From contig OX467091.1 in NCBI GenBank assembly GCA_950106755.1, positions 5,411,538 to 5,475,537 of the forward strand: 64,000 nucleotides of DNA. The letters run 5' to 3'. Positions 1,889 through 62,268 of the stretch are shown one piece after another. Source of the stretch: Climacium dendroides (lineage: Eukaryota > Streptophyta > Bryopsida > Hypnales > Climaciaceae). Made by a program: the position numbers and the translations under genes. The notes beneath the pieces were generated by a model that was given only the letters and a program-made list of their open reading frames with translations, was not told the origin of the DNA and did no database searches. Each line of letters begins with the position of its first letter. The stretch's first letter is position 1.

Positions 1889-4800
1889 ATGGACTTCTCA
1901 GCCTCCGGAGGGTGCCACCAGCCAATTCACCCGGTTCCTAGGAGATCAAATGTCAGTTCTGAGCACTCCTCCAAGCTCTCGTTCACAAGATTCTTCTCCT
2001 TCATTCCAGCAGGGGCTCGTCTGTTTTGCTTGGGTATGCTGGCACTTCTTCTGACCTCGCCATGTGCACACCGCGTTGGAGCTGTCACTTTTGCCTTCAG
2101 TGGCTTCCAAGAAAGCGATGTTTACATGGTGCCTGGTAGCCCCTGGACTTTCCAATCCAACACCAGTTGTTTCTACTTTGATCCTCCCGAGGCGTCGTGG
2201 AACAAAAGCGTTGCTGGTCGGTTTCTGTATCCGTCCCTGGTGCAAATGAAAGATCCAGCCACCAATCGAGTCAAATCTTTCAGTACCACTTTCATTTACC
2301 AGATCCAGATTCCACAGGCTAACTCTTCTACTGTTCCCATTGGTCCTGGAATGTCCTTCATCGTGGTTCCAGACAACGTCACAGTGGGAGCTGCAGAAGA
2401 CTACATGGGACTTTTCACCGCCGACACCTCCACTTCTGCCAAGAATTATGAGTCCGATGTTCATACCCTCGGGGTGGAATTGGACACCTTCAAGAACCCC
2501 GAGTTCCACGATCCCGATGACAATCATATTGGTTTGAATTTGGCAAGTATGAATTCGACTTTCGTAGTCGACCCTGTCTATACCTTAGCCTCAGTTCGTG
2601 AAGATGTTTACACACAGATCTGGATTGACTATTCTGAAGCCGATTCTCGAATGGATATTTCCATTGCACTCTATGGGGAAGGCAAGCCAGTTACGCCGCA
2701 AGGGTCACAGACAGGGGTAGATTTATCGCTGCTCCTGGAAAACATGTACATTGGATTCTCCACTGCCAAGGGGATTGAAAGTAATAATGTGCCGATTGTG
2801 TATGCGTGGAGCTTCAGCAACGACGGCATTCCAGCTCCTCGAATTGTTTTTGGCCTGGATGAAACCTCAGCAGCACGATCAACTTGTATGTTTCTACTTA
2901 CACATGTTTGCATTTGGAATTTTCCGTTAAATAACCGAGCGTCTCGTTTTTAGAAGACCAAATTATAATGAATATTATGTTGCATCTTTATATCATAACA
3001 AGTGTTATAATTTATTTTAACACAGTCAATAAAAACGCAGTAATTTCTATGTCATAAAAAGTTTTATGTTTTAGCACTAGAAACTCTTGTTGTCCTTGAA
3101 GATAGGAATCCAACGATGTAATTTAAGAGAAAAGTTAATAGATCTTGCCAAGTTTAAGATGACTTTGAACCCTGTCTGGGTCTTTCAAAGAGATACTGAC
3201 CATTTCAAAGTCAGACCTCGTAACCCGTGCATTCTGTGAGTCTACATAATTCTCTCGTTTGTGTTCAGTTTAATTTGGTCTTGAAAATGATTTTTAATTG
3301 CATTATAAATTACATATACTATCAGAATAAAGCTTACCAATTCCAGTTTCTAATCAACTTAAGTCTATATATGATTCTCAAAAATTCCTAAAAATGAGAA
3401 CGTTAGTACAAATTCAAGTAAAACACGCAGTAACATGTTTACAAGGGTACCTCGTCAAATTTCCTAATTAAACATGATTCTTCACCATGGTTGGATGTTC
3501 TCGTAGAAGTTTACACTGACCTTCAGATTCTCTGATCGAGATGATCGAGCTCATTTTGTAGTTGCTATGAATTTCCTTTCATAAACTGCCATTAGGTATC
3601 ACGTTAGTGTTTGCACTTTTTACATAGCTACAGAATGTTCAACTGTATGATTGACAAGTTATTTGTTTCATCCTCACAGCAAAGAATTGGGCGGCAATTG
3701 GAGGAATTGGGAGCTCTGTTGTAGCAATATGCTTACTGGGTTTACTTTGGTGTTCTCGCAAGGTTTATCAGCGTCCACTGCGTGTTTTTATATCCTACAC
3801 AGGTGCTTCTGATGGATCAAGGAATAACATTCCACTGTGGCTAAATGATGGAATAAAGTCATTACTTGAATCACATGTCAAAATCTTTTTTGATCCAGAT
3901 GACTCTCGACTGGGTGTATCTCTGGCACCTACAATCATTATGGAATTAGCAAGGTTTGATGTAGGGATTGTGGTTATAACTAAGGAATATTTTGAAAGGA
4001 AGTGGCCTATGATAGAGTTGATAGCTTTTGTGGAAGCTGAAAAGAATGATATGAGGAGTAGAATTCATATAATACCCTTGTTTAATGAGCTCAAACCTGA
4101 GCAACTGAAGGTTCATCTGGATGAAGGAACTTGGGAAGAGAGTTGGAAAGAAATGGCCAAGGGCCGTCATCCAATTGAGGTGGAAAAGTGTAGAGAAGCA
4201 GTGATGTGGCTTTGCAATGCAAGAGGTATGCCATACGATTCTGACAGAAGCGGCAATGACAAATTTTGCACAGAGACAGTTTCTAAGCAAATATATGAAA
4301 TTTTATGCGAAGAAAGGAGTTTTGCATCAAATTTTTCTTGGATCAAGACCACAGTGGTTGAGACGGTAATCCAAATGCCCTTCATTTGCACTGAAAAGAG
4401 AAGGATAGGCGCAAATCAAAGAGCTGGAAAGGAAAATGGCTTACTGAACTACATCAACAAGCGGCTGCAACTTCTATTTGCATTGTCCGGGCTGTTGAAT
4501 ATACTTCTCTCTATCATCTTGGACAATTTTTTCAATGATCTACCCGTCCGCTTCATTGCTTTTGCAATATTGGCCCCTTTAACGATTTGTTTGGGCTCTC
4601 TAGCTTCAGGATGGTTTCCACGTATCCCCTTACGGTTCATTGCATTTGTAAAACGGCGTGGGTTTCTTCAACAGGTGGTGCCTTGTAGCCCTTGGCACGA
4701 CAATGTAGTTACTGATTTTTGTGGTGAAGTTTGTCCTTTGGAACACTTGGACAAAGCTAGAGGAACAACAGTTTCTGAGCTCCCCATGGTAATTCAAAAT

Positions 4801-6273
4801 TTCCTCTATGGGGATCAAATTCGTCCTCCAAGAACCATTGCCACTACCACCACTCATTCTACATCTCATTCAGAAGCTCAAGACTTTCAAGTGGAAACTA
4901 CAATGGGAGAAGGCCAAGACCTTCAAGGGCTAACTACAAGGCGTGAAACGTTTGATTTTGCCCCTTTGAGTGCAATTCTTGAACGCTCCCATTCAGAGAT
5001 GCCAACAAGTCAAGCATCATCGCCGAATTTACAACAATCACCCTCTCACGATGAACATATTGTTGTCAATATTCATCGTTCTTTACTGTTTCATATTTTA
5101 GACAATGAACGAGCACCCATCTTGGAATTTGATGGTCCCAAGATCAATGGGTTTCCTTTGATAGTTCAAGCTTTCAAGAATATGTCGATAACGAACCATA
5201 CTTTTGACCTATCTTGTACCTTCAGAAATAGGAGGACAAAGAGGATGTACCTAACTGCTGAAAGACTACATAACTTGGTTGAGAATATGTGCCGATGGGT
5301 GGAGAATCCTTATCCAATTGTAGTCGACGAATCAAGCGACATTCTACACTGCATGGCCATTGAAGACATTCTTTGGGACTTTACAAAAGCAGTTTACACA
5401 TTCACACCAGTTCCTGTGGAACATCGTTTTCTTGCTGGTTTGGGGCATATCAAATTCTTCATCGGATTGTCCTATGCTTCTGTCTCATTTGTGTTGAGTT
5501 TAATACCGCTTCTCTCTGACAAAAGAAGTTTATTCTTCTTGTTCTTCTTATTTGTCCTTGTGCCCTATTTGATTGCCTTAGATGACACAAATCCCCTCAA
5601 TTTTTATATCATCAGATCTCTCTTGTGTCCCATATGTGTTAAGATCTTTGGTTTCAATAGATTGTACAAGTCAAGGTCTTCCTTCAGATGGTGCAACGAG
5701 TTCAGAAAGAAGAGAATAGTCAATCCCACACACTTTTGGATTGATGAAGAGTATGCAAACACATGCCCAGTTGCAGCTAGTTGTCTTGATGTGTGTGGGT
5801 TTGTAGATTCACCAGATAGTCCTCCTAAGGATCAAAGTTTCACCGTCAGTTGCAAAGGTTGGCCAGCAGGGGTTCCAGCAATGTGCAAGAAACAACATGA
5901 TTATAAACTGAGGGTCAAGTTTGATTCAGTCAAACTCATTCAGGATGTCAATTGCTACACCAATGTGAGGTTGGCATTCTTTGAAGATGACTGTCTTCTT
6001 GCTAGTCACAACTACAGTGCCATTGAGGTCCAGAAAGTCCACTTGGTCGAGAAGTTGTTTCATTGTTTCTCTAATCCATCATTTGGTGGATATGTGGAGA
6101 AAATCTGTCCCAGGGGTTACTGCTCGACGACCTTCGTAGCCCACAGCCCTAGATTTATAGACTTCTGCCAGACTATTTTTTTCAGTAATCCAATTCCTAA
6201 ACTCTTGGTAGCTTCCAGAATGCGTGACTCCAAAGTCGTTGTTGGCATCCCTTTCTGGTCTTCAGAACTGTAG
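1889..6273 (+). CDS. Lectin-TIR receptor-like protein, gene 1 (L-type lectin - TM - TIR - polytopic tail)
   Basis: Two exons, 1889-2885 and 3680-6273, joined by a phase-1 GT-AG intron, give 1196 aa. Residues 1-65 are a basic tail plus a hydrophobic signal segment (about 45-56). Residues 66-316 are a legume-lectin domain with the metal-binding pattern VELDT (196-200), N203, D208-D211 and HIG (213-215), and a C-terminal strand YAWSFS. A membrane helix (about 336-356) leads to a TIR domain (about 365-515): box 1 RVFIS, then VGIVVITKEYF, then KWPMIEL with E445 at the position of the TIR NADase glutamate, then IIPLF. Two membrane segments (about 595-616, 623-644), a Ser/Thr-rich linker, two more (about 923-944, 949-966) and a conserved C-terminal domain follow. 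The ATG at 1889 is chosen because upstream in-frame starts are not ATG and gene 2 conserves only this one. The likely location is the plasma membrane, with lectin outside and TIR inside. I know of no named family with this order. Confidence 0.88.
2886..3679 (+). other. Phase-1 intron of gene 1
   Basis: The donor is GTATGT at 2886 and the acceptor is tcctcacag ending at 3679. The donor GTATGT is identical in all three paralogues and the phase is the same. Splicing joins a single leftover T to CA, giving Ser, and keeps exon 2 open to 6273. Gene 1 uses an acceptor with a different local sequence from genes 2 and 3 (tcctcattag), and as a result lacks the extracellular Pro/Ser linker they have. 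Much of the intron aligns with the gene 2 intron. Confidence 0.85.
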
Positions 6274-12689: not shown

Positions 12690-13310
12690 CTCCCACTGTA
12701 CAGTAAGGTCTACCTCATTTACAAATCTTTCAATCAGTTTTCATTATAAAGTTCAACAACTTTAGGAAGCTCTAGCATGCTCAAAAACAAACCAATTTTG
12801 AAACCACAAATTGTGTTGGAATCTCAATGAAGTGCACTTCAACTTTATAACAAGTGAAAATGTAAAATCCAAAATCTTACCACAATTTGAATTTCTTTTA
12901 TACAATATCTACCATCCTTTGAAAGATAGTCAAAGATTTTTTGCAATGTGGTGAAGAATAAGCAAGAAATCATGCAAGCAATTCAAGTGGTATAGAATGA
13001 AGTGTATCTACAACAACTACAAACAATCATTTTGAACATGCCTAATCAGATGTGAGCAGAAATTTTGGCGAAAGGTGGTACTACTAAATGATAGATAGTG
13101 TACAAAAAACATCCAAAATGTTGTATAATTTTGAATTTCACATATACATAATTGTTATGGTGATAAAGTTCTCTTCTCTACAATTCCAACACAACTTGCA
13201 ATTTGAAAATTGATTCATTTTTGAGCATGATATGGTTTACTAAAGTTTAGGAACTTGCTAGTGAAAACTGCCGGGGAGCCAAAATTTGTAAATGAAGTAG
13301 ACCTTACTGT
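12690..13310. repeat. Inverted repeat, about 620 bp, next to a larger foldback
   Basis: 'cactgtacagtaaggtctacctcatttacaaat' at the left is the reverse complement of 'atttgtaaatgaagtagaccttactgtacaat' near 13280-13312. 'tagcatgctcaaaaacaaacc' at the left pairs with 'tcatttttgagcatgatatgg' near 13214. Arms are about 170 bp, imperfect. Its right terminus abuts or overlaps the left terminus of the 13307-14306 foldback. Confidence 0.65.
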
Positions 13311-14306
13311 ACAATGGGGTACAGCTCAATTACGAATTCTTGCATTCACAGTGAAAAAAAAGTTCACTGCTGCCCACTTTGACGCCCTCCCGAGGGCTGA
13401 AAAATTAATATTTTCTCACGAATTTTTTTTACAAGATCCTCTTTATGCTAATAACATATGTGCCAAATTTCAAGTCCAAAAAATTTATACAAAAAAAGAT
13501 ATTCAAACATGTACCAACATGTGTTGTTCAAAAAAAATTTCACTAATACCAACTTTGACACCCTCCCAAAAATTGAAAAAAAAAGTTTTGGCCTTGAAAT
13601 TTTTGGTGTAAGATAAACTTAGTGAAACTAACTTATGTACAAAATTTCAAGTTCAAAAAAATTTCCCACAAAGAGTAGTTCAACTTCTACCAACATGTGT
13701 AGTTATGAATTTTTTTTCCATAACAACACATGCTGGTAGATTTTGAATATATCTTTTTTTAAGTAAATCTTTTGGCCTTGAAATTTCACACACATATTAC
13801 CAACATAGAGGTGATCTCATGCCAAAAATTTCATGGTACATAAACAATTTTTTTGCCCTTGGGAGGGTGTCAAAGTTGGGCCATAGTGAAATTGTTTCTC
13901 ATGGCTACACCTATCAATTGGTAGAAGTTGAACTACTCTTTGTGGGAAATTTTTTTGAACTTGAAATTTTGCACATTAGTTAGTTTCACTAAGTTTATCT
14001 TACACCAAAAATTTCAAGGCCAAAACTTTTTTTTTCAATTTTTGGGAGGGTGTCAAAGTTGGTATTAGTGAAATTTTTTTTTGAACAACACATGTTGGTA
14101 CATGTTTGAATATCTTTTTTTGTATAAATTTTTTGGACTTGAAATTTGGCACATATGTTATTAGCATAAAGAGGATCTTGTAAAAAAAAATTCGTGAGAA
14201 AATATTAATTTTTCAGCCCTCGGGAGGGCGTCAAAGTGGGCAGCAGTGAACTTTTTTTTCACTGTGAATGCAAGAATTCGTAATTGAGCTGTACCCCACT
14301 GTACAA
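13307..14306. repeat. Long near-perfect foldback, about 1.0 kb
   Basis: Arms of about 400 bp (about 13307-13705 and 13905-14306) are near-perfect reverse complements, from 'gtacaatggggtacagctc' at the left to 'gagctgtaccccactgtac' at the right. The arms carry repeated sub-units around 'tttgacaccctcccaaaaattg' and 'ggccttgaaattt', which also recur in the loop, so the element looks built from an amplified shorter unit. The transcript would form a long double-stranded RNA. An open frame of 118 codons in the left arm (13255-13611) is mirrored by the repeat and is probably not a gene. Confidence 0.85.
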
Positions 14307-19700: not shown

Positions 19701-22700
19701 ATGGACTTCTCAGCCTCCGGAGGGTGCCACCAGCCAATTCACCAGGTGCCAAGGAGATCAAGTGTGAGTTCTGAGCACTCCTCCACGCTCCGTTTCTCAG
19801 GGTTCTTCTCCTTCATTCCAGCAGGGGCTCGTCTGTTTTGCGTAGGTATGCTGGTACTTCTTCTGACCTTGCCATGTCCACACCGCGTTGGAGCTGTCAC
19901 TTTTGCCTTCAATGGCTTCCAAGGAAGTGATATTTACATGGTGCCTGGTAGCCCCTGGACTTTCCAATCCAACACCAGTTGTTACTACTTTGATCCTCCT
20001 GAGGCATCGTGGAACAAAAGCGTTGCTGGTCGGTTTCTGTATCCGTCCCTGGTGCAAATGAAAGATCCAGCCACCAAACGAGTCAAATCTTTCAGTACCA
20101 CTTTCATTTACCAGATCCAGATTCCACAGGCTTACTCTTCTACTGTTCCCATTGGTCCTGGAATGTCCTTCATCGTGGTTCCAGACAACGTCACAGTGGG
20201 AGCTGCGGAAGACTACATGGGACTTTTCACCGCCGACACCTCCACTTCTTTCAAGAATTATGAGTCCGATGTTCATACCCTCGGGGTGGAATTGGACACG
20301 TTCAGGAACCCCGAGTTCCACGATCCCGATGACAATCATATTGGTTTGAATTTGGCAAGTATGAATTCGACTTTCATAGTCGACCCTGGCTGTCCCTTAT
20401 ACTCATTTGCTGAAAGTCTTTACACACAGATTTGGATTGACTATTCTGAAGCCGATTCTCGAATGGATATTTCCATTGCACTCTATGGGCAAGGCAAGCC
20501 AGTTACGCCACAAGGGTCACGGGCAGGGGTGGATTTATCGCTGCTCCGGGAATACATGTTCGTTGGATTCTCCACTGCCAACGGGATTGAAAGTAATAAT
20601 GTGCCGAGTGTGTGTGCGTGGAGCTTTAGCAACGACGGCATTCCAGCTCCTCCAATTGTTTTTGGCCTCAATGAAACCTCAGCATCACCTTCAGCTGGTA
20701 TGTTACTTTCTACTTATTACACGTGTTTTCATTTGGAATTTTCCATTTTTAGTTTATGACCGTACGTCCAGTTTTTAGAAAACCAAGTTATAATGAATAT
20801 TATGTCGCATCTTTATATCATAACAAGTGCTATGATTCATTTTAACACTGTAAATCAAAACACAGTGAATTTTAAGTCATAAAAAGTTTTATGTTGTAGC
20901 ACAAGAATCTCTTGTTGTCCTTTAAGTTACGGATCCAACAATGTAATTTTAAAAGAAATCTTAATACATCTGGAAGCTTAAGATGACTTTGAATCCTATC
21001 CTGTGGATCTTTCAAAGATATTTTGACCATTTCAAACCTCGTACCACCGACTTGGAGTGCATTCTTTCAATCTCCATGTTTCTCTCGTTTGTGTTTTACT
21101 TAATTTGGTCTTGATACTGATTTCAATTGCAAATGCTATGAATTGTATATACTATCAAAATAAAGCTCACCAATGCTAGTTTCTAATCAGCTTAAGTCCA
21201 AAGTTTCCTTAAAATGAGAAATTCAAGTAGGATATTCAGTAACATGTTTACAGGTTGCCTCATCAAATTTCCTAATGTAAGCCTGATTCTCAGCATTTGA
21301 TGTTCTTTGTAGAAGTTTACTTGGACCTTAAACTTTTAAGATTTTCTGATTGAGCTGATCAAGCTCATTTGGTTGTTGATATGAATTGCCTTTCATAAAT
21401 TGCTATTAGGTATCACGATAAGGTTTGCACTTTTGACATAGCTACAAAATGTTCAACGTTCTATATGATTGACATGTTGTCATGTGTTTCATCCTCATTA
21501 GATGCGCCTCTTGCTCTCCGGCCTTCACATGTATTAAGAACTCATTTGCATAGTGGAAGTCGACCTCTAAGCCTCAGTATCACACCTAGACCATTACACA
21601 CAACCATGGAGACAGTTATACTCGATTTGGTGATAATGATAATGATAGATGTCTCTGTTATCTTTCTGGCAATATACTTATTTCTTCGGCGCAGAAATCG
21701 GGTTCAACATCCTTTGCGTATTTTCATATCCCATGCAGGTGGTCCAGACGGATCAGGGAAACACTTTGCAAGGTTTCAACATGATATTATGACGTCAATA
21801 TTGAAGTCTCGCGTCAAAATCTTTTGTGATCGAGGTTGTTTTGAATATGGCAAAATCTTTGCACAGAGAATCTTTGAGGAATTAGCAAGGTTTGATGTAG
21901 GGATTGTGGTTGTAACTAAGGAATATTTTGAAGGGAAGTGGTCTATGACAGAACTGATAGCTTTTATGGAAGCTCAGAAGAATGATCCGAAGGAAAGAAT
22001 TCGCATACTACCCCTGTTCTATGGGTTCACACCTGATGAATTAAAGGGTCATTTGCGTGAAGGAACTTGGGAAGATAGTTGGAAGGAAATGGTCAGAGAT
22101 CCTCATCCAATCACGGTGGAAATGTGTAGAGATGCAGTGACGTGGCTTTGCACTAGAAGAGGCATTCTATACAATTTACACAACAGTCGTAATGACAAAC
22201 TTTACATGGACACAATTTGTAAGGAAATAGACGATTTAGTAGACATAGATAGGGAGTTTAGATCAAGTCTTGGCCCAATTGGCTGGATCAAGTCCACACT
22301 ATTAGGGAGGGTAACCTCAATGACCTTTATTGGCACTAAAAAGAGAAAGAGACTTGCAAATCAAAGAACTAGAAAGGAAATTGAAGTGATGATTTACATC
22401 AACAAACTGCTACGACTACTATTTGGATTTTCTGGGATATTGGTTATACTCCTCTCTATCATTTTGGACAATTTTTTCAATGACAAACCTATCCGCTTCA
22501 CAGCATTTGCAATATTGGCTCCAGTTATGATCTCTTTGGGCTTTCTAGCTTCGGGATGGTGTCCACGAATCCCTTTACGGTTCATCGCATTTGTAAAACG
22601 ATGCGCGTTTCTTCAACATGTGGTGGCTTGTAGCCCTTGGCATGATAATGTAGTAACTGATTTTTGTGGTAAAGTTTGCACTCTGGAACCCTTGGAACGA

Positions 22701-24224
22701 GAAGGAACGAGGCTATTAGACTTCCCCACGTCAGTTCAAAATTTTCTCTATGAAGATCAATTTCCTCCGCAAAGAACTAGACTCACTACCTACTCTCACT
22801 CTACTTTGGAATCAGATATTCAAGACTGTCAAGTGGCAACTTCTCCTTTGGAGATACAATTTCAAGACATTGGAGATGTATCTACATTGAATCAAGCATT
22901 CAATCCACAAAGCCAAGACTTTAAAACCAACAATGTTCCAGATCAAGCTTCTATGAGTGAAATTCTTGAACGTCCTCATGTATTCGTGGCAACAGGTCTA
23001 GTATCATCTCCAAATTTATATGAAGCACCCTCTCGAGTTGAGGATATTGCTGTGGAAACTGATGATTCTCCCCTATTTTATGTTTTAGGCGATGAACAAG
23101 CGCCCATCTTGGAATTTGAAGGTCCTAAGATAAATGGGTTTCCTTTGAAAGTTCAGGCTTTCAAGAATACTTCGACAAGAGCTCTTAATTTTGACCTATT
23201 CTGTACCTTTCAAAACAAGAAGAGACGGAGAATGAACTTGACTACTGAAAGACTATCCAACTTAATTCAAAATATGTGCCAGTGGGTGAAAATGCCTTAT
23301 CCGATTGTAGTCGACGAATCAAGTGACATTCTACACTGCATGGCCATCCAAGACATTCTCTGGGCATTTACAAAAGGTGTCTATACATTCAATTCAGTTC
23401 GTGTTGAACACCGATTTCTAGCAGGTATGGAGAAGGGCGGATCCGTTGTCTTCGTATCACTTACTATATTCTCCTTAATGGTGAGTGTAATACCTCTTGT
23501 TTCTAACAAGACAAGCAATTGGTTCCTATTGTTCTTGATTGTTCCAGTGGCCTATGTGCTTACGTTATTGGACATTCCTTATTACTTCAGATCTATCTTC
23601 TGTCCTGTTTATATGAAATACAAGGATTTTAGAAGATTATACAAGTCCAAGTCTCCCTTTATATGGTGCAACGAGTTCAGAAAGAAGAAAATTGTCAACC
23701 CCAATAGCTTTTGGATTGACCAAGAGTACGCAAATAAGCTCTCAGATGCGGATAGCTGTTTTTATACAGATGAGTTAGTAATATTACCTGGTAATCCTTA
23801 TAGGGGAAAGAGCTTCAAAATTGCTTGCCAAGGTTGGCCAGAAGATGATCAAAAAATATACAAGAAACAACATGATTATGAACTCGAAGTGAACTTCGAC
23901 ACCTTCAATCCAGGTGACACTTGCTACACCAGTGTAAAGTTGTTATTCTCTGAGAATGGTGATCCTCTTGGTACCAGACAGTACAGTTCTGTGGAAATCC
24001 AAAGGTTGCAATTGATAGAGAAGCTCTTTTATTGTTACTCTAATCCATCTTTTGGTGGATACATTGAGACAATACGCCCATGTTCTTGGTCCCAGTCACA
24101 CTTGGGAAATTGCCGCAGATTTCTAGATGTTTGCGATAAAATCATCACAGATAGTACAATGCCAATCCCTTGGGAAGCGGCAACAAAATCTGACTCTCAA
24201 TTCATCATTGGTGTACCTTTCTAA
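19701..24224 (+). CDS. Lectin-TIR receptor-like protein, gene 2
   Basis: Exons 19701-20697 and 21502-24224 with a phase-1 GT-AG intron give 1239 aa. Exon 1 has exactly the same length as in gene 1 (997 nt) and an estimated 85-90% of its residues match. It holds the signal segment and a full legume-lectin domain (VELDT, HIG, CAWSFS). Exon 2 adds a 37-residue extracellular linker absent from gene 1, a membrane helix (about 370-394), TIR (about 403-555; box 1 RIFISH, KWSMTEL with E483 as putative NADase glutamate, RILPLF), and the same polytopic tail with SPFIWCNEFRKKKIVNP. It ends in IIGVPF, lacking the WSSEL extension of genes 1 and 3. Upstream in-frame starts are not ATG, so MDFSASGG is taken as the start. 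Exon 2 is more diverged from genes 1 and 3 than they are from each other. Confidence 0.88.
20698..21501 (+). other. Phase-1 intron of gene 2
   Basis: The donor is ctg|GTATGT at 20698 and the acceptor is tcctcattag ending at 21501. The one-base remainder G joins AT to give Asp333. An ATG at 21465 inside the intron is in frame with exon 2 and open through the acceptor, so an unspliced or alternatively started transcript could encode a lectin-less TIR protein beginning MIDMLSCVSSS. Confidence 0.82.
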
Positions 24225-28803: not shown

Positions 28804-29103
28804 TTACAATCCTTGAGCTGAGGTTGGTAATGGGCACCCAACAACCACTCCCCCTCCACCAATTCCACCTCCACCAGCACCCCCTCCGCCATAGTTTCCC
28901 CCATGGCGAACTTCAACACCACCCCCTCCGCCTCCACCAAACCCTCCTCCCAGACCGCCCCCTCCAAATCGTTTGAAATTCTCGCGTCCATCGCCATCTT
29001 GATTGTGACTGGCGCAGCACATGCTTGTCACCACAACGGCTACGATGACAAAGAAGACCAAAAACATCATAGTCCCAATGATGATCGCCACCTGATCAGA
29101 CAT
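28804..29103 (-). CDS. Small membrane protein with glycine-rich tail (hypothetical)
   Basis: An ATG at 29103 opens 99 codons. Residues 1-9 are short and polar, about 8-29 form one strong hydrophobic helix (VAIIIGTMMFLVFFVIVAVV), then come MCCASHN, an acidic/basic stretch, and a tail from about residue 50 that is mostly glycine (FGGGGLGGGF and similar). Upstream in-frame codons are TTG, so this ATG is preferred. Plant glycine-rich proteins are diverse, and this one has no signal-peptide cleavage site I can be sure of; a tail-out or tail-in anchor is possible. The overlapping plus-strand frames look like shadows. No operon-like context. Function unknown. Confidence 0.5.
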   Translation of the reverse strand: MSDQVAIIIGTMMFLVFFVIVAVVVTSMCCASHNQDGDGRENFKRFGGGGLGGGFGGGGGGGVEVRHGGNYGGGGAGGGGIGGGGVVVGCPLPTSAQGL

Positions 29104-30290
29104 ATTCAATATCGATCGTACTCGAGGATTGATCAATCCAGCAAGGGCTCTGACTGATACCCAATTTGATCGACCGAGGTTCTCACAAATGCTCGATCAG
29201 TTCAGTCGATTAATCAGAATGATCTGATGTGGCAGTCCCCAAAGAATCCACATACACGTACACCGAAGCTTCTGGTTACAAGCTTTAAACACTAACTGTC
29301 AATTAACTAGTACAGGAAAACTTGTTGAAAAATACCTACCCCAGAAATGACAGAGTGCTCTCTAACGTTGGCTGTGCACGACACATAAAAAGCTTAATAC
29401 GGAGCTCTGTGGACGTACTCTTTGAAACACTCGTTTTCTAGCCAGACGGAGACTCTCGGCAGTGGGCACCCCAAATTAACTCGTTGCTGAACTTCACTCG
29501 CCCCGGCCAGCGCGTACTAGCTACGGTACCAGTGTACTACCGAATGACATCCATGATATTGTGGTGGAAGTCCGTGACGGGTTTAATTACCTTGATTGCA
29601 AATATTGAATCTAGAGCACTAGTACAACTCAAGTGCTAATACACAAATTTACATGGCAGCTTAGGCAGCGGCATTGGAACCATCGGGGTTTTCTGAGGCA
29701 AAACTTCGTACTCTGTGTCAGGTTTGAGCCTGTCAGATCCCGTCCCTCCAGAATTGCGCCAGTGCTGTGAAGGCCTGTGGCAGATACTGTTCCGAAAAAA
29801 ACGGTGATTCGAAACTTCGGGAACCTTAATTTCACCCAAAACGCGTTCTTGGATATTCACCGCGAATCCTGCGCGGCTTCAGTCGGCACCTTGGTAACGT
29901 AACTGTGATATGCAAGTCTACAACCCTTGCTTGGAACAGGCGTTTGGTGGTGATCGTTCAGCTGACGCAGCCCGGCCAGAACTCCGGAGGCAAGCAAGCT
30001 AAGCTAGGCCACACATGCACAGTAGTGAACGAGGTCTGATCTCCACTTAACGGAGACCAACTGAAAAATCGATCTGTCAGCAGCAGTCGGCAGGAGCTAC
30101 CGATTTTGTAAATGATGTTGTAAATGATGGAAACCGATACCTGTCTGCATAACCCACAGGGGGCTCGTGGCTTGAAATGGAGGAGGATCGCATGCCGACT
30201 GAGGGTAAATAGCTCGGCAAGAGGACACTGTCTACAAAGCTGGGGACTCTGTGAGTGTGTGAAAGAAATCAGTTCGATCGAGCCACCGTA
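29104..30290. other. GC-richer region upstream of the small membrane gene; weak coding-like stretch
   Basis: Higher in G+C than the spacers on either side, so it may be promoter plus leader of the 28804-29103 gene. On the minus strand 29860-29629 is open in two frames without a shared domain; one frame reads GAILEGRDLTGSNLTQ, which superficially looks like a pentapeptide repeat but is too short to claim. No gene is called. Confidence 0.3.
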
Positions 30291-36333: not shown

Positions 36334-39294
36334 TCACAAAGAAACACTTGTGGCGGAGATGCCGGCAGCAGCAGGAGGAGCCGCCGCCGCAGCCGCACGG
36401 TTCCCTTCCCCAACACTGACGGTGAACGTCATGACGTCCTTAGGATCACTGATCTCCGTGATGGCCACGCCCGTGGCGGCGCCGTTGTTGGCCTTGGTGG
36501 ACGGGTTGCTGGTGGAGTTCACCAGGCGCACAGCTTTGGTACCCGGGAATGGGTCGCCGGCGTCGCCGCGGTCCTCGTCGCGCTCGAGGTCGCGCGTGCC
36601 GTCGCTTTGCAGGAGGGCCACTTTGTAACCCACCGACTCATTGGTGTTGTCGTCCTTGGTCTCGTCAATGTGCCAGATGAGTAAGCCTCCCGCGGGGAGG
36701 TCCGCGTCGCGACCCTTCTTCTGACGATTCTCCACGAGGAAGTACTCGGCTTGAGGGGCACCGTCTTTCCACAGCTTCACCACCCTGCATCAATGGCGGA
36801 ATTTTGGCACCCCAATGTTTTGTTCAATGGCGTGATGAGAACAGTCATGGCTACATTTCAAATTTGTAACAAATTGTGAAATTTTTGCACGTCAATTTTA
36901 GCCCAATATTTGGCTTGATGAGGAATTGAGAACAGACTTGGCTTCACTTCAAATTTGTTAAAATGGTGCAATTCTTGCACCCCGTACCCATTTCAGCCCA
37001 CTGACTGGAATCGAACATTCAAAATGTGAAAACTTTGTACCCCAAGTTTGGTGCAACCACTTGAAACTGACATTAATTCTTGGCTACGTACACGTCAAAT
37101 TTGTTCCAACAAACAAAATAAACAATGAAACCAAGAAAAAAACAGAACCCCTTGCTTGCCTGTGCTGGTCAACGATTGTTAAATTTGATGTTTTAGGCTT
37201 AACTTTCAGCAGTCACTTCAATTTGGCTTACAGTGCTCACTTACGAGCAGTTGGTACCAAATACGGTCGATCACAAGAATTTTAAATTTAGATGTACTTT
37301 TGAGCTGGATTCATTTTCAATTGTTTTCACCACGTACCTCTAATACTAAGTGCAAACATACCTTTTGAAACCTCACGAACTGATTTCCAAGTTCCAAATT
37401 CAAAGCACTAGTTCCAATGTGTACCAAACCACAACAAACCACAGCAAATCACGACACCACAAGCAACCCGATTCCCCCTGCTTGCCTGTGCTGGTCCTTG
37501 ACGTCGTGCACCTAGCTCGACTTTCATCGAGCTAAACCATTCCCAAATTTCATATCGAAAGACCTAGTTTCAATGTGTATCAAAACACAACAAAACACAC
37601 AACAACATGCTTGATTGCGTTGATCATTAAATTTTTACATGTGGCGTTACGTTTCAGTAAAATTTGCATGAAGAGCAGTATTGAACAAAATCTCAGGCAT
37701 GATTAATTAAACTGGATTCTTTCTTTTCTTACACCACCTCCCAAACCAAGTGCAAACATACCTAAACCACATGAACTGATTTCCAACCAAATCAAGAGCA
37801 CTCGTTCTAGATGTGCCAATGTGTCGCAAACCACAACCCAGCACAAGAAATTCAAGCCCCCAGAACGATTAAATTAAATATCAGTCCTTACCTGTGCTGG
37901 TCCTTGACATCGGGCAGGCTTACTTGCATGGTCTTCCCCGGGGTGTCGACGTCCACCCACCCCTGGTCCACTTTACACCACGCGCAAGGCACCGACGGAT
38001 TGTCCTCGTTCCCATTATAACTCCCCGCGGCCATCAGACACCACACCCCAACCCCCTCGGAACTATAATCCGCGTCATACAGATCTGGCCACCCGAACGC
38101 CAGGTGCCCGAGCTCATGTGCACAGACACCGAGCTTACAATCCCCGGGAACAGTCAAGTAGGAGTAGATCTTCGTCCCGTCCGCGTCGTAAGGCCCATTT
38201 GCTAAAATCCACTTGTGCGACCAGATGTCCGTTGCTTTGCCGGTGCGCTCGGCGCCCATGCCGGCGTGCACGATGACGAAGGCGTCCACATATCCGTCGT
38301 TGTCGTTGTCGTACTTGGAGAAGTTGACATCGGGGTTGGCAAGGCGGGCGGCGTCGCGGGCCATGAGCTGGGCGTTCGGGGTGCGGTCGCCTAAGCCGTT
38401 GGCGTTGTTCGCGTAGTAGGTGATCGGGTGGGGGAGGCGGTAAGGGCCGACGACTTCGCCCTGGGGGGAATGGTCGTTGAAAAAACGTTAAGTTAGCCCA
38501 CATAATGAAGTTCAGTAGCGGAACACCAAAAATTTGCCCCAAAACGAAAGCACACAACACTGACAACAGTGGCCACCAGTACTGTACAGAAGCCTAAATT
38601 ACAATGTTCACTTTTGCAAGACCACCAGAAATCTATTAACAAGTTTGCAACAAGGTCAGTTTGCATTAGTTCCATACCCAAGACTTTTGCAACAAGTTTG
38701 CAGCACATAAATTGCAATGGTTAATGTGCAACATATATGCCACATGTGAGTTTCAAGGCAAAGTATGGAACCACTACTTCAAAAACCGTTACAATTCAAG
38801 CCATTGTTGAAGTGAACATTGCAACCGCTACTTCATTCCTGGTGTAGTGGAGTACTGACCTGGATGGTGACTGCGCCATTGGAGACATCAGTGTAGTAAT
38901 CCCTCACGCTGTTCGACTTCTCCTCAAACCACAGCTTATCGAAATGCTCCTTCGTCTGCGTCGCCGTGAACTTCTTGTCCGCGAAGTCCACCAGCACCAC
39001 AATAACTCTCACTGCTCCTCTGAGGGGCGCTCTGTCCGCCAGCTGCTCCGCCAGCGTGACCCCCGGTCGGAATGTGCTCGGCGGACGCACCACACCGTCG
39101 TTGAACCCCTTGCGCCGCTTCTCCACAGGCCGAAGCACCGACTTCAAGAGAGCATTCTCGGGGGATTCGGACAAAAGTTGCTGGATCTGGTCGTAACGGT
39201 GCAGGAGTTGCTGGCGAACATCGGGCGATGGAGCCACCAGGCAACGCTCGGAGTAGTGGGCCACCACGGTCTCGGGCAGGCGAGGAGACGCCAT
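36334..39294 (-). CDS. M6-family zinc metallopeptidase (immune inhibitor A-like)
   Basis: Three exons on the minus strand, 39294-38860, 38460-37892 and 36784-36334, with GT-AG introns in phase 0 and phase 2, give 484 aa. The N-terminal part has VRVIVVLVDFADKKF and SVRDYYTDVSNG, typical M6 strands. A DNDGYVDAFVIVHAG segment precedes the zinc motif HELGH (H260, E261, H264) and the third ligand Asp271 in GWPDLYD. The Met-turn is WCLMAAGSYNG (Met288). The C-terminal part holds LLIWHIDE and an Ala/Pro-rich end. M6 peptidases are metal proteases best known from bacteria and scattered eukaryotes. No signal peptide is apparent at the ATG chosen (MASPRLPE), which suggests a cytosolic product or a missed upstream exon. 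The exons are far richer in G+C than the spacers, and its introns show it is a real eukaryotic gene. Confidence 0.88.
37060..37920 (-). repeat. Repeated exon-2/donor fragments inside M6 intron 2
   Basis: The last bases of exon 2 with the donor (plus strand 'cctgtgctggtccttgac' at 37891) recur at about 37482 with a GC donor, and partly at about 37156 ('gcctgtgctggtcaacg'). Flanking sequence is also repeated ('gaactgatttccaa' at about 37378 and 37769, 'caatgtgt..caaaccacaac'). This shows tandem duplication of roughly 390 bp spanning the exon-intron junction. Confidence 0.7.
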
Positions 39295-41940
39295 GGTTGG
39301 GTCAAATAGATCTCTGTCAAGCCAACAGCAATCAATTCATTGGAAGAAAACAGAAGAACAAAGTTGCTAGCTTGTACGGAAGGCTGATAAATATTGCTAT
39401 AATTTTTGCAGTCTGTGGTTTTTGTTTAAGCCAAATTATATTGAAACGGACCAAACCTTGTTTCTAGAGCTGTGAATGTGTTGGAACGAGAACTGAACTG
39501 AAACAGTTCAACCCAAACAGAAGATGCAGAGACAGTTTTAATGAACATCGAATTTGGTGAAGTGGCAACAGGTCCTCACACCTCAAGAACCGCAGGTCTA
39601 TAGCTTTTGAGCTCTCAGCACTTTGGTGCCCATCGATTTCATTCTATTGGCGTGATTCGAGGCCAAAATTGTGCGACTCAGAGTTTCAAGTTTGTGAAAT
39701 TTAAGTGCACAAAAGGAGTTCTACGAAATACGACTGGCGTGACTGGATGCACGTTTCTAGATGGATGGGCTGGAAACGTGCCAATGGCGTGAAATTTCGT
39801 CAAGATATCTAGAACTTTTGGCATTCTAAACTATAGTAATTTAGTATCCATGGTGTGACATTTCTTTAGAAAATGAAACCATTTATGAATGATTGCTTGG
39901 ACCTCAAAGGGTTAACAAATTTCACCATACAAGTGTCTACAGATAGGGACTTAGTTATGAAGAATGGCGTTCAAGAACATATGAACATTCTCGCTTTCTA
40001 GATCACACTCAATCTGAACAATTTGTCCATTGTGATGCTATTACATCTTTGAATTCACAACTCAAGAACATCGAAAATTGATGATGAAGAGACAAAAACG
40101 CACAACTAGTCAGCCAAAACGCACTCCAAGACATTCCAATCTGAAATATGCGACCAGAATTTGTAACAATGGCGGCCTGTCCATTTCCAGGTGCTTGAGG
40201 TGAGGAATCCCAATTCTTAAGCACCTAAAAGACAGAGGTTGGTTCAAGGTCTAGATTTTGATTAAACACTGTTAGAAATGTCCAATTCAGATAGACATCA
40301 ATATTTAGGGAGTCTTCGAAATCTCAAGGAATGGAGTACCGACATTTCGGTACATACATACAATCATGTCAATCAGCTAGTAAGCTCCTAACCTTGGTCA
40401 AATTCGTATGTCTTCAATTCCTATCTCCAATTCCGGGAATTTCCTGCATCACAAATCGAGTACAACTAAGAATCTCTTCAACGTAGCTCTAAACATCTCT
40501 TTCGCATGGATTACAAAAGAATTTCAGATTCAGCGCCCTAGTCTACCAAGTCGCCCGGGAATCTAATGCATCCAAAGCCTGCATCAAGCTATGAAACCAC
40601 AAGCAAAAGTATATAGAGACCCTAGACGCTGTTTCTAGAGCACTGAATCCAAAGCATCCAAAGCTTGCATCAAGTTATAAAACCATGAGGATCAATTGAC
40701 AAGAGCTTGGTACCGAGCCTACTCTACGGAATCTCGTAGCGTAGAAATCTCATACCACAAACGAGATGATAGTAGTTGTGACTAAGTTACACTTACAATA
40801 TGTCTAGTAAGCTGTGATGAACACACAATGAAGCGGAGGCATGCAGACAGACATTTATACCTATTATTTTGTAGGTGACGTGTCAGTCTCTGATGACTCA
40901 CAGTTGGAGTGTGCAGAAGCACTATGCTTTCCGAAAACAAATGATCGTTCCACTCCTTGTTCGCCCCTGTTTCACTCCAATTGTCAGACTGTTGCTTCCT
41001 ACCAGTCCAACACTCCTGCCAGGATCAGGACCATCACGTTTTACAAGCTTAAGGAAATTGGGTTTCGAAACGATTCATTTGATTTAATCACTTACTTCTT
41101 GCAGAAAACATAGAATTGTGAATGATGGGCTTAATTTTACATCTATGGAATCAGTGAAGAAGTTAGACTGGAATCCATTTGTTTGACCACTGACATTAAT
41201 AATGAATTTGAAGTTTCGAACAAAAGCAAATCATTACGTGCCACTTGCTCGATCAAAACTGCTAAATAAAAGATGAGAGCAAGAAACGAACTAGGACCAT
41301 AGATTGCTCAGTCTTGGTTTTTTTACTGTAATGTGAACTTTATTGGACTCGACCACATTAAGTATTACGTGGTGGGGTTGAATCTTTGTTGCAGAATCGA
41401 CTGACTCTTTTGCAATGAAACATAAATTTCAACAACTGTAACTTATTATTATTATTTTTAAATTACCAATTTTCCAGAAGCCGGTACATGGAAACATGAA
41501 GCCCATGTGAATCGTGCTGGAGGATGAGATTCCGGCCAAGGCCTTTTCAAACACAAGAAAGCTGTTATTTTTAAACACAAGAAAGCTTGAAGGGTACTAC
41601 TGCTCCTGCACAGTACACTAGGACTGTACAATAGTGCAAAAGGAGTTTCAGTTTTGCAAAAAAGCCTCAAGTTTAAGATTATCTTAAGATTAAGATATTC
41701 ACAGAGATTCCAAGTGCTTCTGTATGCCACCGACTCTCTCTGTCTGACGCATCATCAACTGTACGTCAAAGCTTAAAACGTGCTCTGGACAGCCAGCTCA
41801 GTGAGCTCACTATCCCCTCACAACACGCCACATCACCATCTCCAATAAACAATCCCACCCAAACCATCTCAAAAAGACAAAAGAAAAAGGGGTCCAGGTG
41901 GCAGGTGGCAGGTGGACGAGAATTCAAATATATACAGATA
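39295..41940. other. Upstream region of the M6 gene and spacer
   Basis: Presumed promoter and leader of the minus-strand M6 gene near 39300-39600. A TTAACCC end pointing left lies at 39912-39915. The duplicated phrases 'atccaaagcctgcatcaagctatgaaaccac' and 'catccaaagcttgcatcaagttataaaacca' (about 40569 and 40656) form a small direct repeat. The plus-strand frame at 40841-41113 (90 codons) has no recognisable domain. No further gene is called. Confidence 0.4.
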
Positions 41941-42220
41941 TAAGGTAGGCACACCCAAAACCGCCACTTTTTGCTACTGAGCTTATTTTCTATTATTAAA
42001 CTAGTCAAGTTTTCGTATGTTCTTGTTGGCAAGTGAAAGGAGGTTCCAACACACCAGAGAACGTGGCATTTGGATACTGTATGCAACAGTTATTAAGGAA
42101 CAAAGTTTGGTTCTAAAAGCATTTCTTCCACATAGGTACATAACTGATTTTGGAGATGTACATATAGTATGGATGGCACTTTAAGGTCAGTGGCACATTT
42201 GGATGTACATACCTACCTTA
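41941..42220. mobile_element. MITE, family TAAGGTRGG, copy 1 (280 bp)
   Basis: The ends TAAGGTAGGCACACCCAAA and (reverse complement of the right end) TAAGGTAGGTATGTACATCC are inverted repeats. The interior 'gttcttgttggcaagtgaaaggaggttcc' is shared almost exactly with the copy at 42882-43157. Terminal TA dinucleotides could be the target site. Confidence 0.75.
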
Positions 42221-42881: not shown

Positions 42882-43157
42882 TAAGGTGGGTACACCTAAA
42901 ACCGCCACTAATTGGTATTGAGCCTATTTCCTAATATTGGACTGGTAAAAATTTCATATGTTCTTGTTGGCAAGTGAAAGGAGGTTCCAACGCACCAGAA
43001 AACGTGGCATTTGGATACTGTATGCAAAAGTTATTAAGGAACAAAGTTTGGTTCTGAAAGCATTTCTTCCACATAGGTACAGAACTGATTTTGGAGATGT
43101 ACGTATGGTATAGATGGCGGTTTAAGGTCAGTGGCACATTTGGGTGTACCTACCTTA
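42882..43157. mobile_element. MITE, family TAAGGTRGG, copy 2 (276 bp)
   Basis: The ends TAAGGTGGGTACACCTAAA and (reversed right end) TAAGGTAGGTACACCCAAA differ at two positions. The interior matches the 41941-42220 copy. It is immediately followed by another MITE beginning at the same base. Confidence 0.78.
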
Positions 43158-52417: not shown

Positions 52418-52575
52418 TACACACTACTAGAAAATTTCGTTTTTCTGTTGTTTTGGTCGCGTTGATCCGGTCAAAATCTGACAGAAATCTGTTGAAATCA
52501 ACAGATTTCTGTCAGATTTTGACCGGATCAACGCGACCAAAACAACAGAAAAACGAAATTTTCTAGTAGTGTGTA
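52418..52575. mobile_element. Perfect 158-bp palindrome with CACTACTAG ends
   Basis: Positions 52418-52495 and 52498-52575 are exact reverse complements over 78 bp, with only AA between them. The arm begins TACACACTACTAGAAAA and contains 'ggtcgcgttgatccggtc'. The layout is a miniature foldback transposon; TA borders would fit a TA-target family, while the CACTACTAG start recalls CACTA ends, so its class is open. Confidence 0.88.
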
Positions 52576-58953: not shown

Positions 58954-61900
58954 CTATAGTTCGGAAGACCAGAATGGTACGCCAACAACTAATTTGGAGC
59001 CAGGCATTCTGGAAGCTACCAAGAGTTTAGGAATTGGATTACTGCAACAAATTTTGTGGCAGGTATCTATAAATCTGGGGCAGTGGGCTACGAAGGTCGC
59101 GGAGCAGTAGCCTGTAGAGCAGATATTTCCCACATATCCACCAAAAGATGGATCAGAGAAACGGTGAAATAGCTTCTCGATGAAATCTAATCTTTGAACT
59201 TCAACGGCACTGTAGTTGAAATCACCAAGAAGATGGTCATTCTCAAAGAATGCCAACCTTACATTGGTGTAGCAATTGACATCCTTCATCAGTTTGACTG
59301 CATCAAACTTTACTTGCAGTTTATAATCATGTTGTTTCTCGCATATTGGTGGAAGTCCTGGCATCTGTTGTAGCCAACCTTGGCAACTCATGGTGAAACT
59401 TTGACCCTTAGGAGGACCGGAGAACTCTGGAAAACCACACACATCAAAACAACTAGCTCTGTCTGGGAATGTGTTGGCATACTCTTGATCAATCCAGAAG
59501 TATGAGGGATTGACAATTCTCTTCTTCCTGAACTCGTTGCACCATCTGAAGGAAGACCTTGACTTGTACAATCTACTGAAACCAAAGATCTTAACACATA
59601 GGGGACACAAGAGAGATTTGAATCTATACAGAGTGAGGGGATTTGTGTCATGTGAGGCAATCAGATAGGGCGCTAGGACGAACAAGAAGATTAAGAAGTA
59701 ATAACTTTTTTTGTCAGAGATGAGCGGTATCAAACTTAACACAAACGAGGCAAAAACAAAAGACAATACAAAGAGGAATTTGATTTGCCCCAAGCCTGCT
59801 AGAAAACGGTGCTCCACATGAACTGGTTTAAATGAGTAAACCGTTTTTGTAAACTCCCAAAGAATGTCTTCAATGGCCATGCAATGTAGAATGTCGCTTG
59901 ATTTGTCGACTACAATTGGATAAGGATTTTCCACCCATTGGCAAATGTTCTGAACCAAGTTTTGTAGTCTTCCTGTAGTCAAGTACATCCTCCTTGTCTT
60001 CTTGCTTCTAAAGGTACAAGATAGGTCAAAAGTATGGTCTTTCGCCAATGTATTTTTGAAAGTGTGGACTTTCAAAGTAAAACCATTGATCTCGGGACCA
60101 TCAAATTCCGCTCTTTCATTGCTTAAAATATGAAACACACAAGAAGGATCAATCTCCACAACAATATCCTCACCTCGAGGAGGTACTTCATGTAAATTTG
60201 GCGATGACGCTGGGCCTATTGCCACCTTTGAATGGGAGCGTTTGAGTATTCTACTAGCGGGAGCAAAATCAAACATTTCACTCCGTGTAGTTTGCCCTTG
60301 AAGGTCTTGGCCTTCTTGTACCAAAGTTGCCACTTGGAATTCTTGAATCTTTGAATCAAATGTAGAGTGAGTGCTTGCAGTGGCAATGGTTCCTTGAGGA
60401 GAAATCTGATAACCATAGAGGAACTTTTGAAATGACATGGGGAGCTCAAATAGCCTTGTTTCTTCTGCTTGCTCCAAGGGTTCTAAAGTGCAAACTTCAC
60501 CACAATAATTGGTAACTACATTGTCATGCCAAGGGCTACAAGGCACCACCCGTTGAAGAAACCCATGACGTTTTACAAATGCAATGAAGTGTAAGGGAAT
60601 CCGTGGAAACCATCCTGAAACGAGAAAGCCCAAAAAGATAGTAATAGGAGCGAGTATTGCAAAAGCTGTGAAACGGACGGGTTGGTCATTGAAAGAATTG
60701 TCTAAGATGACCGAGAGGAGTATAATCAATAGCCCCGAAAATGCAAACAAGAGTCGCAATAGTTCGTGGACGTAAATCATCACTCCAATTTCTTTTCCAG
60801 TTCTTGGATTTCCACATCTCCTTCTCTTTTCAATGTCAATACAAGTCATTGAAAAGCCCCCTATGACCCAGGTAAGGTTCGATGCAAAGTTCCCTTCTTT
60901 CCATAAGATCTCTATTTCCTTACAAACTGCGTCTACATTAAGTTTGTCAAAATCTTGTCTCTGTGAATAGTATGGCATACCTCTTGCATTGCAAAGCCAC
61001 ATCACTGCTTCTCTACACTTTTCCACCTCAATTGGATGACGGCCCCTGCCCATTTCTTTCCAACTCTCTTTCCAAGTTCCTTCATCCAGATGAACCTTCA
61101 ATTCCTCAGGTGAGCATTCATGGAACAAGGGTAGTATTCGAATTTTCACCGGGTCTTTCTTTTGAGCTTCCACAAAAGCTATCAATTCTATCATAGGCCC
61201 CTTCCTTGAAAAATATTCCTTAGTTACAACGACAATCCCTACATCAAATCTTGCTAATTCCTTAATGGTTTTATGGGGACAATCACCTGGAGCAAGAAAG
61301 ATCTTGACACGATACTTCGAACTCAACCTTGACTTCGTTATCTTGTTTAGCCAAGTTAGACAGTTTTCCCCTCGTCCATCTAGATCACGTGCGTGGGATA
61401 TGAAAATACGCAGCGGACATCGAGAAACTTTGCGCCGACAAAGAGTCTTAAGTATCCAGATTCCTACAAAAACAGCAGCGAGAACAGCAGCGAGAACAAT
61501 TCCTCCTATAGATAGTGGCTCCACATCGGATGTTTCTGAAACCGAAGGAGTGGATGTTGGTGCAAGTGAAGGCGATGGAGGAATTTCTGGGGGAGCAGCA
61601 AGAGGCCCATCTAATGAGGATGAAACAAATGACAACGTGTCAATCATACAATTGAACATTTTGTAGCTATGTAAAAAGTGCAAACACTAATATGATACCT
61701 AATAGCAGTTCATATAAGGAAATTCACATCAACTACAAAATGAGCTCGATCAATATCTCAGAATTTTAAGTTCTGTGTAAACTTCTACAAAGGACATCCA
61801 ACCATAGTGAAGCTAGAATCATGTTTACATTACAAATTTTGATGGGGTAATCGATGATACTGTTTTTACATAAAGCTGCATTGTATGGAATCAAAACTTG

Positions 61901-62268
61901 GACTAATAAAAAGGAGAGTTGCTCACCTAGAAAAATTCCAAATGCAAATGTGATGGTGAAAAGATTCGTAGAAACATACCAGATGGAAGAGCGGGAGGTG
62001 ATGCTGAAGCGGCATCCAAGCCCATAACAATTGGAGGAGGAGGAATACCATCGTTGCTGAAGTTCCACGCATAAGCAGAGGGTGGATTCCATGGCAAGAT
62101 CAGAAGAAGTGCCAGCATACCTACGCGAAACATACGAGCCCCTGCTGGAATGAAGGAGAAGAACCCTGAGAATCGGAACTTGGAGGAATGCTCAGAACTC
62201 ACACTTGATCTCCATGGCACCTGGTGAATTGGCTGGTGGGGGCACCCTCCCGAGCCTGGGAAGTCCAT
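58954..62268 (-). CDS. TIR receptor-like protein, gene 3 (lectin core deleted)
   Basis: Exons 62268-61980 and 61610-58954 on the minus strand, with the same phase-1 intron position, give 981 aa. Exon 1 is 289 nt against 997 in genes 1 and 2. It keeps the N-terminal tail and signal segment (MLALLLILP), then jumps to the last lectin strand (YAWNFSNDGIPPPPIV), so 236 codons are missing with the frame intact. Next are a Pro/Ser/Thr-rich linker (about 97-127), a membrane helix (about 130-152) and a TIR (about 162-310; RIFISH, VGIVVVTKEYF, IRILPLF). The KGPMIEL segment keeps the Glu (E238) but has Gly where genes 1 and 2 have Trp. The polytopic tail ends VVGVPFWSSEL, closest to gene 1. Without a lectin fold it could be an adaptor-like or decoy partner of genes 1 and 2. 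It shows no stop or frameshift, so it is probably functional or very recently altered. Confidence 0.82.
61611..61979 (-). other. Phase-1 intron of gene 3
   Basis: Donor GTATGT at 61979 and acceptor tcctcattag ending at 61611 (minus strand), 369 nt against about 800 in genes 1 and 2. As in gene 2, an in-frame ATG within the intron (61647, or 61683 further out) is open into exon 2, allowing a start without exon 1. Confidence 0.8.

Follow-up and report, generated by a model that had tools for sequence, protein, structure and literature searches.

A gene predicted to encode a lectin-TIR membrane receptor, and two further copies of it, in a 64-kb window

The stretch of DNA analysed here comprises 64,000 nucleotides of contig OX467091.1 (positions 5,411,538 to 5,475,537 of the forward strand; hereafter the window, numbered from its first letter). 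It carries three copies of a two-exon gene, the first of which (copy 1, 1889-6273) encodes, in one frame joined across its intron, a predicted signal peptide, a legume-lectin domain, a membrane helix, a TIR domain and a long C-terminal region with further predicted helices. Copies 2 and 3 were found within the window by tblastn, and their gene models were built by similarity. The features of the three copies are as follows.

1889..2885, + strand: copy 1 exon 1, with signal peptide, legume-lectin domain and start of the stalk (332 codons and 1 base; reading frame, Pfam, PDB sequence search)
2000..2056, + strand: copy 1 signal-peptide hydrophobic core, residues 38-56 (hydropathy)
2201..2830, + strand: copy 1 Lectin_legB match, residues 105-314 (Pfam, 1.1e-42)
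2886..3679, + strand: copy 1 GT-AG intron, splice phase 1 (same donor and phase in the similarity-made models of copies 2 and 3)
3680..6273, + strand: copy 1 exon 2, with membrane helix, TIR domain, C-terminal membrane module and stop (reading frame, Pfam)
3691..3747, + strand: copy 1 predicted membrane helix 1, residues 337-355, followed by a stretch of net charge +4 (hydropathy)
3775..4227, + strand: copy 1 TIR domain, residues 365-515 (Pfam, PDB sequence and profile searches)
4015..4017, + strand: copy 1 E445 codon, at the position of the catalytic glutamate in plant TIR domains (PDB sequence and profile alignments)
4300..6270, + strand: copy 1 C-terminal region, without Pfam match, with two related proteins, P0040 and P0041 (Pfam, protein search)
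4465..4608, + strand: copy 1 predicted membrane helices 2 and 3, residues 595-613 and 624-642 (hydropathy)
5458..5583, + strand: copy 1 predicted membrane helices 4 and 5, residues 926-944 and 949-967 (hydropathy)
19701..20697, + strand: copy 2 exon 1, lectin, Lectin_legB 4.2e-40 (tblastn, gene model, Pfam)
20698..21501, + strand: copy 2 intron (similarity model)
21502..24224, + strand: copy 2 exon 2, with helix, TIR domain (8.1e-7) and C-terminal module (gene model, Pfam, hydropathy)
61980..62268, - strand: copy 3 exon 1, with signal peptide and the final ~30 residues still present but the lectin core absent in frame (tblastn, gene model)
61611..61979, - strand: copy 3 intron (similarity model)
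58954..61610, - strand: copy 3 exon 2, with proline-rich stalk, helix, diverged TIR-like region and C-terminal module (gene model, Pfam, hydropathy)

Copy 1 starts with an ATG at 1889 and ends, as read from the window, with a stop codon at 6271-6273. Its intron is bounded by the donor TT/GTATGT at 2885/2886 and the acceptor CACAG/CA at 3679/3680, and exons 1889-2885 and 3680-6273 join in frame into 1196 codons without a stop; the original prediction had placed this gene exactly to the base. Exon 2 is open over 863 codons, as against 202 for the longest open frame in any of six frames after 200 base shuffles of the exon. Copy 2 (19701-24224, + strand) encodes 1239 residues, with both domains and the layout of copy 1. 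Copy 3 (62268-58954, - strand) encodes 981 residues; it has lost the lectin core in frame but retains the signal peptide, the last residues of exon 1, the intron, the helix, the TIR-like region and the C-terminal region. If the copy 1 intron were retained (2886-2953), the product would be a secreted lectin 22 residues longer, whose last codon closes at 2950; this is a possible soluble form.

Exon 1 encodes the full L-type lectin domain that had been predicted for it. Lectin_legB matches residues 105-314 with 146.7 bits and an E value of 1.1e-42 (Pfam cut-off 26.3), and the only two Pfam families matched in this exon are both legume-lectin families, one of them above its cut-off. Of 94 distinct matches among PDB sequences at E<=0.01, the best 60 all bear the names of lectins, agglutinins or their chains. 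The metal-binding residues noted for the domain also hold up: in alignments with solved legume lectins, E197, D199, N203, D208 and H213 fall on the metal site, at positions that we take to be its metal ligands. Five N-glycosylation sequons lie in the ectodomain of copy 1. A reading of PF18483 as an ER (endoplasmic reticulum) cargo-lectin family was dropped; Pfam names it a legume-lectin domain.

The TIR domain is detected in the whole exon-2 protein (TIR_2, 30.5 bits, 5.9e-7; TIR, 28.7 bits, 1.3e-6; cut-offs 28 and 21.3) and more strongly in isolation (TIR_2, 35.0 bits, 2.4e-8; TIR, 30.6 bits, 3.6e-7), so that both profiles proposed for checking the prediction, Lectin_legB and TIR, match above cut-off. 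A kinase-only or non-TIR match to residues 365-515, which would have refuted the prediction, was looked for by Pfam and PDB searches and none was seen; no protein kinase appears among the Pfam matches of exon 2 up to E 10, and Pfam finds no NB-ARC, LRR, TPR or Nictaba/PP2 lectin domain in the copy 1 protein. The four best PDB matches of exon 2 are plant TIR domains (AT1G72930, 1.8e-6; Roq1, 2e-5 and 2.2e-5; RUN1, 2.1e-5), with non-plant TIR domains following from 4.1e-5. A profile of the three TIR copies again puts AT1G72930 first (2.2e-9), followed by the non-plant chains 4c7m (4.4e-8), 4lzp (8.3e-8) and TcpB (1.2e-7), after which comes L6tr (2.6e-7). Where aligned plant TIR domains have the motif W-C-L-D/E-E-L, copy 1 has W-P-M-I-E-L. 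The glutamate of the E-L motif (E445 and its equivalents) is present in all three copies and aligns with a glutamate of RUN1 that we take to be E100, by a count along the chain from an assumed construct start; PDB entry 7s2z is titled as RUN1 E100A bound to NAD.

Helix positions and topology are predictions from a hydropathy scan. The scan places helix 1 at residues 337-355, between lectin and TIR, as had been proposed. The original prediction overlooked the ~680 residues that follow the end of the TIR domain near residue 515, with their four additional predicted helices in two pairs (595-642 and 926-967), and the two further copies in the window. The scan also marked residues 414-432 of copy 1, read as the TIR core, and helix 5 of copy 3 falls below its threshold. 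No Pfam family matches the C-terminal region at E<=10; for copy 3 and the related proteins P0040 and P0041, Pfam returns only sub-threshold PRIMA1, Hol_Tox, Tetraspanin and DUF3614, besides a weak TIR_2 in copy 3. A profile of the exon-2 alignment matches PDB sequences (16 at E<=1) in its TIR part only, and the AlphaFold model of exon 2 (mean predicted local distance difference test, pLDDT, 35.7) is too weak for use. The stretch after helix 1 carries a net charge of +4, +5 and +6 in the three copies. Positively charged flanks mark the cytosolic side of a membrane (the positive-inside rule), and the TIR domain is therefore placed inside. These charges, together with the sequons of the ectodomain, fit a lectin outside and a TIR domain inside; each of the two later hairpins would bring the chain back to the side from which it came, so that the C-terminus would be cytosolic.

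Pairwise comparison of the copies (200 bootstraps) gives median ratios of nonsynonymous to synonymous substitution (dN/dS) of 0.40-0.42 for residues 781-1196 in the three pairs (interval 0.30-0.59), which shows clear constraint on this part of the C-terminal region in all of them; for residues 516-780 the ratios are 0.45-0.68 (upper bounds 0.64-1.0). The stretch from stalk to helix is only 34-37% identical among the copies, and helix 1 is nevertheless present in all three. Similarity is unevenly distributed along the gene. Copies 1 and 2 are 81.3% identical in the intron, 82.9% in the upstream flank and 70.7% in exon 2, whereas copies 1 and 3 are more alike in exon 2 (79.6%), and in the signal-peptide part copies 2 and 3 are the closest pair (93.1%). 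Because the closest pair shifts along the gene, the copies are not described here as simple duplicates; they resemble mosaics in which the lectin segment would have been homogenised recently. Purifying selection on the lectin was likewise considered and rejected, dN and dS both being 0.055 for the lectin part of exon 1 (copies 1 and 2). Of the 43 amino-acid differences between these copies at residues 1-332, eight fall within residues 230-240 of copy 1 (2576-2608), a candidate place of ligand contact.

The whole-protein and five-row profile searches scored only candidates sharing most words with the query, so that distant lectin-TIR proteins could be missed. The whole copy 1 protein found 39 proteins at E<=1e-3 among 7,993 scored, with 27-35% identity over 16-23% of the query, and all 39 carry Lectin_legB and a kinase, as L-type lectin receptor-like kinases (LecRLKs) do. 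The closest protein matches of the lectin suggest a land plant or streptophyte as the source; moss, guessed at from AT-richness, was dropped. Exon 2 found two at E<=10 among 6,782 candidates: P0040 (48% identity over 73%) and P0041 (41% over 56%), from the sources 'jgi' and 'ena' and probably metagenomic in origin. P0040 was also the only protein found by the five-row alignment among 7,996 scored. It has a membrane helix and the C-terminal region with no TIR domain in its frame, and the C-terminal region may therefore exist without one. Scans of viral and genome contigs with the exon-2 and TIR alignments yielded no confirmed relative among 47, 67, 147 and 113 pattern matches, and an Rfam scan had no match at gathering threshold.

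With somewhat better than an even chance, these genes belong to a family of plant cell-surface receptors working like Toll, in which a TIR domain takes the place of the LecRLK kinase. The signal peptide would send the legume-lectin fold outside the cell, helix 1 would span the membrane and the TIR domain would lie in the cytosol. A ligand would bring ectodomains together, and the TIR domains, thus self-associated, would hydrolyse NAD+ to generate nucleotide signals, while the C-terminal region, by its two helix hairpins, would tether the cytosolic part to the membrane and may have a part in its regulation or assembly. We infer the location at the surface, gating by a ligand, NADase activity, a role in immunity and the job of the C-terminal region. 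The Toll-type layout originally proposed stands as regards the order of ectodomain, helix and TIR, which recurs in copy 2; the simple three-part protein does not, since more than half of the chain is the C-terminal region. According to excerpts of PMC11218826, 11 of 20 TIR domains of non-flowering plants caused cell death in N. benthamiana, of moderate to strong degree, and E-to-A mutants of a fern and a Ginkgo TIR domain no longer did so.

A number of observations weigh against such a receptor, beginning with its ectodomain. The residue before the loop glycine is P153 and not the aspartate that binds sugar in legume lectins; classical sugar binding is therefore doubtful even as the lectin fold and the metal site are kept, and the idea of a receptor sensing glycans is not supported in the form in which it was put. 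The same aspartate is missing from seven of the eight lectin kinases aligned (out of the 39 matches), P0005 having it and P0012 having the same G-P-G. For the lectin (copies 1 and 2) dN/dS is ~1 (0.50-2.43), and for the TIR domain the medians of 0.63-0.86 come with intervals (0.36-1.75) reaching beyond 1 in all three pairs, so that constraint on either domain is not demonstrated. Fast change is usual for immune domains, and here it would look the same as relaxation. The tryptophan before the TIR glutamate, kept in copies 1 and 2, is glycine in copy 3, and the cysteine that plant TIR domains have next to the glutamate is replaced in all three copies (by P, S and P). That neighbouring cysteine has been linked to synthesis of 2',3'-cyclic nucleotide monophosphates (2',3'-cNMP; excerpts of PMC9153377); the prediction for copies 1 and 2 is accordingly of NADase-type and no cNMP activity. 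The TIR-like region of copy 3 reaches only 16.3 bits against the TIR_2 cut-off of 28 and lacks six residues after the second conserved TIR strand; this TIR is likely weak. The AlphaFold model of the TIR domain has low confidence (mean pLDDT 46.0) and is too weak for use; its five best PDB matches are all TIR domains, but none reaches E 0.001, giving only mild support from structure. None of the three protein searches, which were capped, found a lectin-TIR relative outside the window. Finally, the location could be an inner membrane. A rival account is a real gene whose TIR domain is a non-enzymatic adaptor or is decaying, which would make the protein a scaffold or decoy rather than an enzyme that signals: the TIR ratios, the missing cysteine and what copy 3 has lost, lectin core included, fit it, and NAD+ hydrolysis is not universal among TIR domains (PMC9153377, in excerpt). 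Retention of the glutamate in all three copies and of the preceding tryptophan in two speaks the other way, and we consider this account unlikely.

A membrane of the ER, Golgi or vacuole, where the lectin would sense lumenal glycoproteins or damage and the TIR domain would report to the cytosol, seems to us a rather improbable setting. L-type lectins of the ER and Golgi do exist, and in our judgement five predicted helices and the ~37 residues preceding the signal-peptide core of copy 1 are unusual for a single-pass surface receptor; set against this are the legume-lectin identity of both families matched in exon 1 and the LecRLK type of every one of the 39 whole-protein matches. It is less probable still that two neighbouring genes were wrongly joined, one for a secreted lectin (exon 1, reading through to its own in-frame stop at 2951-2953, and so obtainable by intron retention too) and the other for a membrane TIR protein of its own (exon 2). 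P0040, with helix and C-terminal part in one open frame without lectin or TIR, is in keeping with separate genes, as are, for copies 2 and 3, the methionines that the exon-2 stop-to-stop frame holds ahead of the TIR domain, within its intronic stretch. In copy 1, however, the first methionine of that frame is its residue 96, inside the TIR domain, and none lies upstream; exon 2 of copy 1 thus needs an upstream exon, an argument valid for that copy only. The models of all three copies share the donor GTATGT and splice phase 1, and this agreement, with frames open over 1196, 1239 and 981 codons, disfavours an artefact. When exon 2 of copy 1 is aligned with its counterparts in copies 2 and 3, 22 of 24 gaps have a length divisible by three, and the other two, of 5 and 13 bases, sum to 18; between the introns of copies 1 and 2 the count is 5 of 15. 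Copy 3 has no lectin core and yet retains both ends of exon 1 in frame, with the signal peptide at one and the tail at the other, as well as the intron. This, too, points to joint transcription of the exons; we infer that exons 1 and 2 are spliced together in the cell.

If the receptor reading is correct, a lectin outside and a TIR domain inside would tie TIR signalling directly to sensing at the cell surface, and the layout of Toll would have been reached with an unrelated ectodomain. To our knowledge, plant surface receptors signal through their own kinase or that of a partner. One phase-1 intron separates the exons for ectodomain and signalling, and copies could therefore swap or lose the sensor without giving up the signalling part, a change that copy 3 may have undergone. 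We suggest, tentatively and at a little less than even probability, that some plants have evolved Toll-type receptors of their own, combining lectin ectodomain, TIR NADase and a membrane module found only in the window and in two other proteins. Plant TIR domains reside in NLR-type, TIR-only or short TIR proteins, as given in excerpts of PMC9153377. Should the source be a non-seed plant, the finding would bear on how TIR domains work there: such plants have TIR domains and no EDS1 family according to the same excerpts, and EDS1 and PAD4 are reported in some ferns in those of PMC12512272.

Elsewhere in the window, 36337-39336 on the - strand holds a metallopeptidase of the M6 (immune inhibitor A-like) type in a GC-richer block; its Peptidase_M6 match (3.2e-20) covers 37891-38487. 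The neighbouring frames 36337-36789 (VEG domain at 0.088, under its cut-off) and 38836-39336 (without a match) may be parts of it. The short frame 28807-29196 (- strand) includes a hydrophobic segment as well as a glycine-rich tail; its match to the GRP family (4e-6) stays below the Pfam cut-off. An inverted repeat of 388 bases (13308-13693 and 13918-14305), whose arms are 98.7% identical and separated by 224 bases, is perhaps a small mobile element. There is also a direct repeat of 274 bases (41941-42214 and 42882-43155; 89% identical), and 52408-52583 is self-complementary over 168 bases (97%).

Comparison with known systems sets the copy 1 protein apart from each of them. It shares with L-type LecRLKs the signal peptide, the Lectin_legB ectodomain, the helix and a cytosolic signalling domain, as well as metal-site residues that are largely kept and a sugar aspartate that is mostly missing (from seven of the eight aligned); where they have a kinase, it has a TIR domain and ~680 residues with four more predicted helices. 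With animal Toll and TLRs it shares the order of ectodomain, membrane helix and TIR domain, the cytosolic side being assigned here from charges; it differs in matching only legume-lectin families where they have an LRR ectodomain, in its long C-terminal membrane module, and in a TIR domain that best matches plant and then other non-animal TIR domains and keeps the catalytic-type glutamate. Plant TNL, TNP and TIR-only proteins have the TIR domain in common with it, AT1G72930 being its best PDB sequence match, but here there is no NB-ARC, LRR or TPR, and the TIR domain sits mid-protein behind a membrane helix. Thus, it is not a LecRLK, lacking the kinase, nor a TLR, lacking the LRR, nor a TNL, lacking the NB-ARC.

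Combinations closer to it are on record. Arabidopsis TIR-Nictaba proteins (PP2-A5 type) unite TIR and lectin in one plant protein (PMC12355970, PMC5485960), although with the TIR domain N-terminal and a lectin of another family, PP2/Nictaba, C-terminal; the order ectodomain-helix-TIR is not described for them in the excerpts of these papers. A TIR-NBS-Lectin_legB-Pkinase class, among the highly species-specific classes of PMC11126693 (in excerpt), brings a TIR and a Lectin_legB domain together in a single predicted plant protein, but in the opposite order and with NBS and kinase. Excerpts of the literature compared (PMC12355970, PMC5485960, PMC6362431, PMC9153377, PMC10834447, PMC11126693, PMC11096116, PMC9915684, PMC12512272, PMC9806590, PMC11218826) do not describe a legume-lectin ectodomain with a TIR domain behind a helix, and the protein and literature searches, with most subscription papers outside their scope, found no named family with the lectin-helix-TIR layout, as originally supposed. 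Two things count against novelty. One is that the 'TM-TIR' classes of plant resistance-gene surveys, mentioned five to eight times each in PMC8160138, PMC10150063 and PMC9616956, carry a label, by which alone they are compared, that suggests helix and TIR without a lectin; helix plus TIR is therefore not new in itself. The other is that Zygnema has 26 Lectin_legB combinations (PMC11096116, in excerpt), among which a TIR partner is possible. What is new, as judged from the searches made, is an order of known domains not found elsewhere in them, together with an unnamed C-terminal module.

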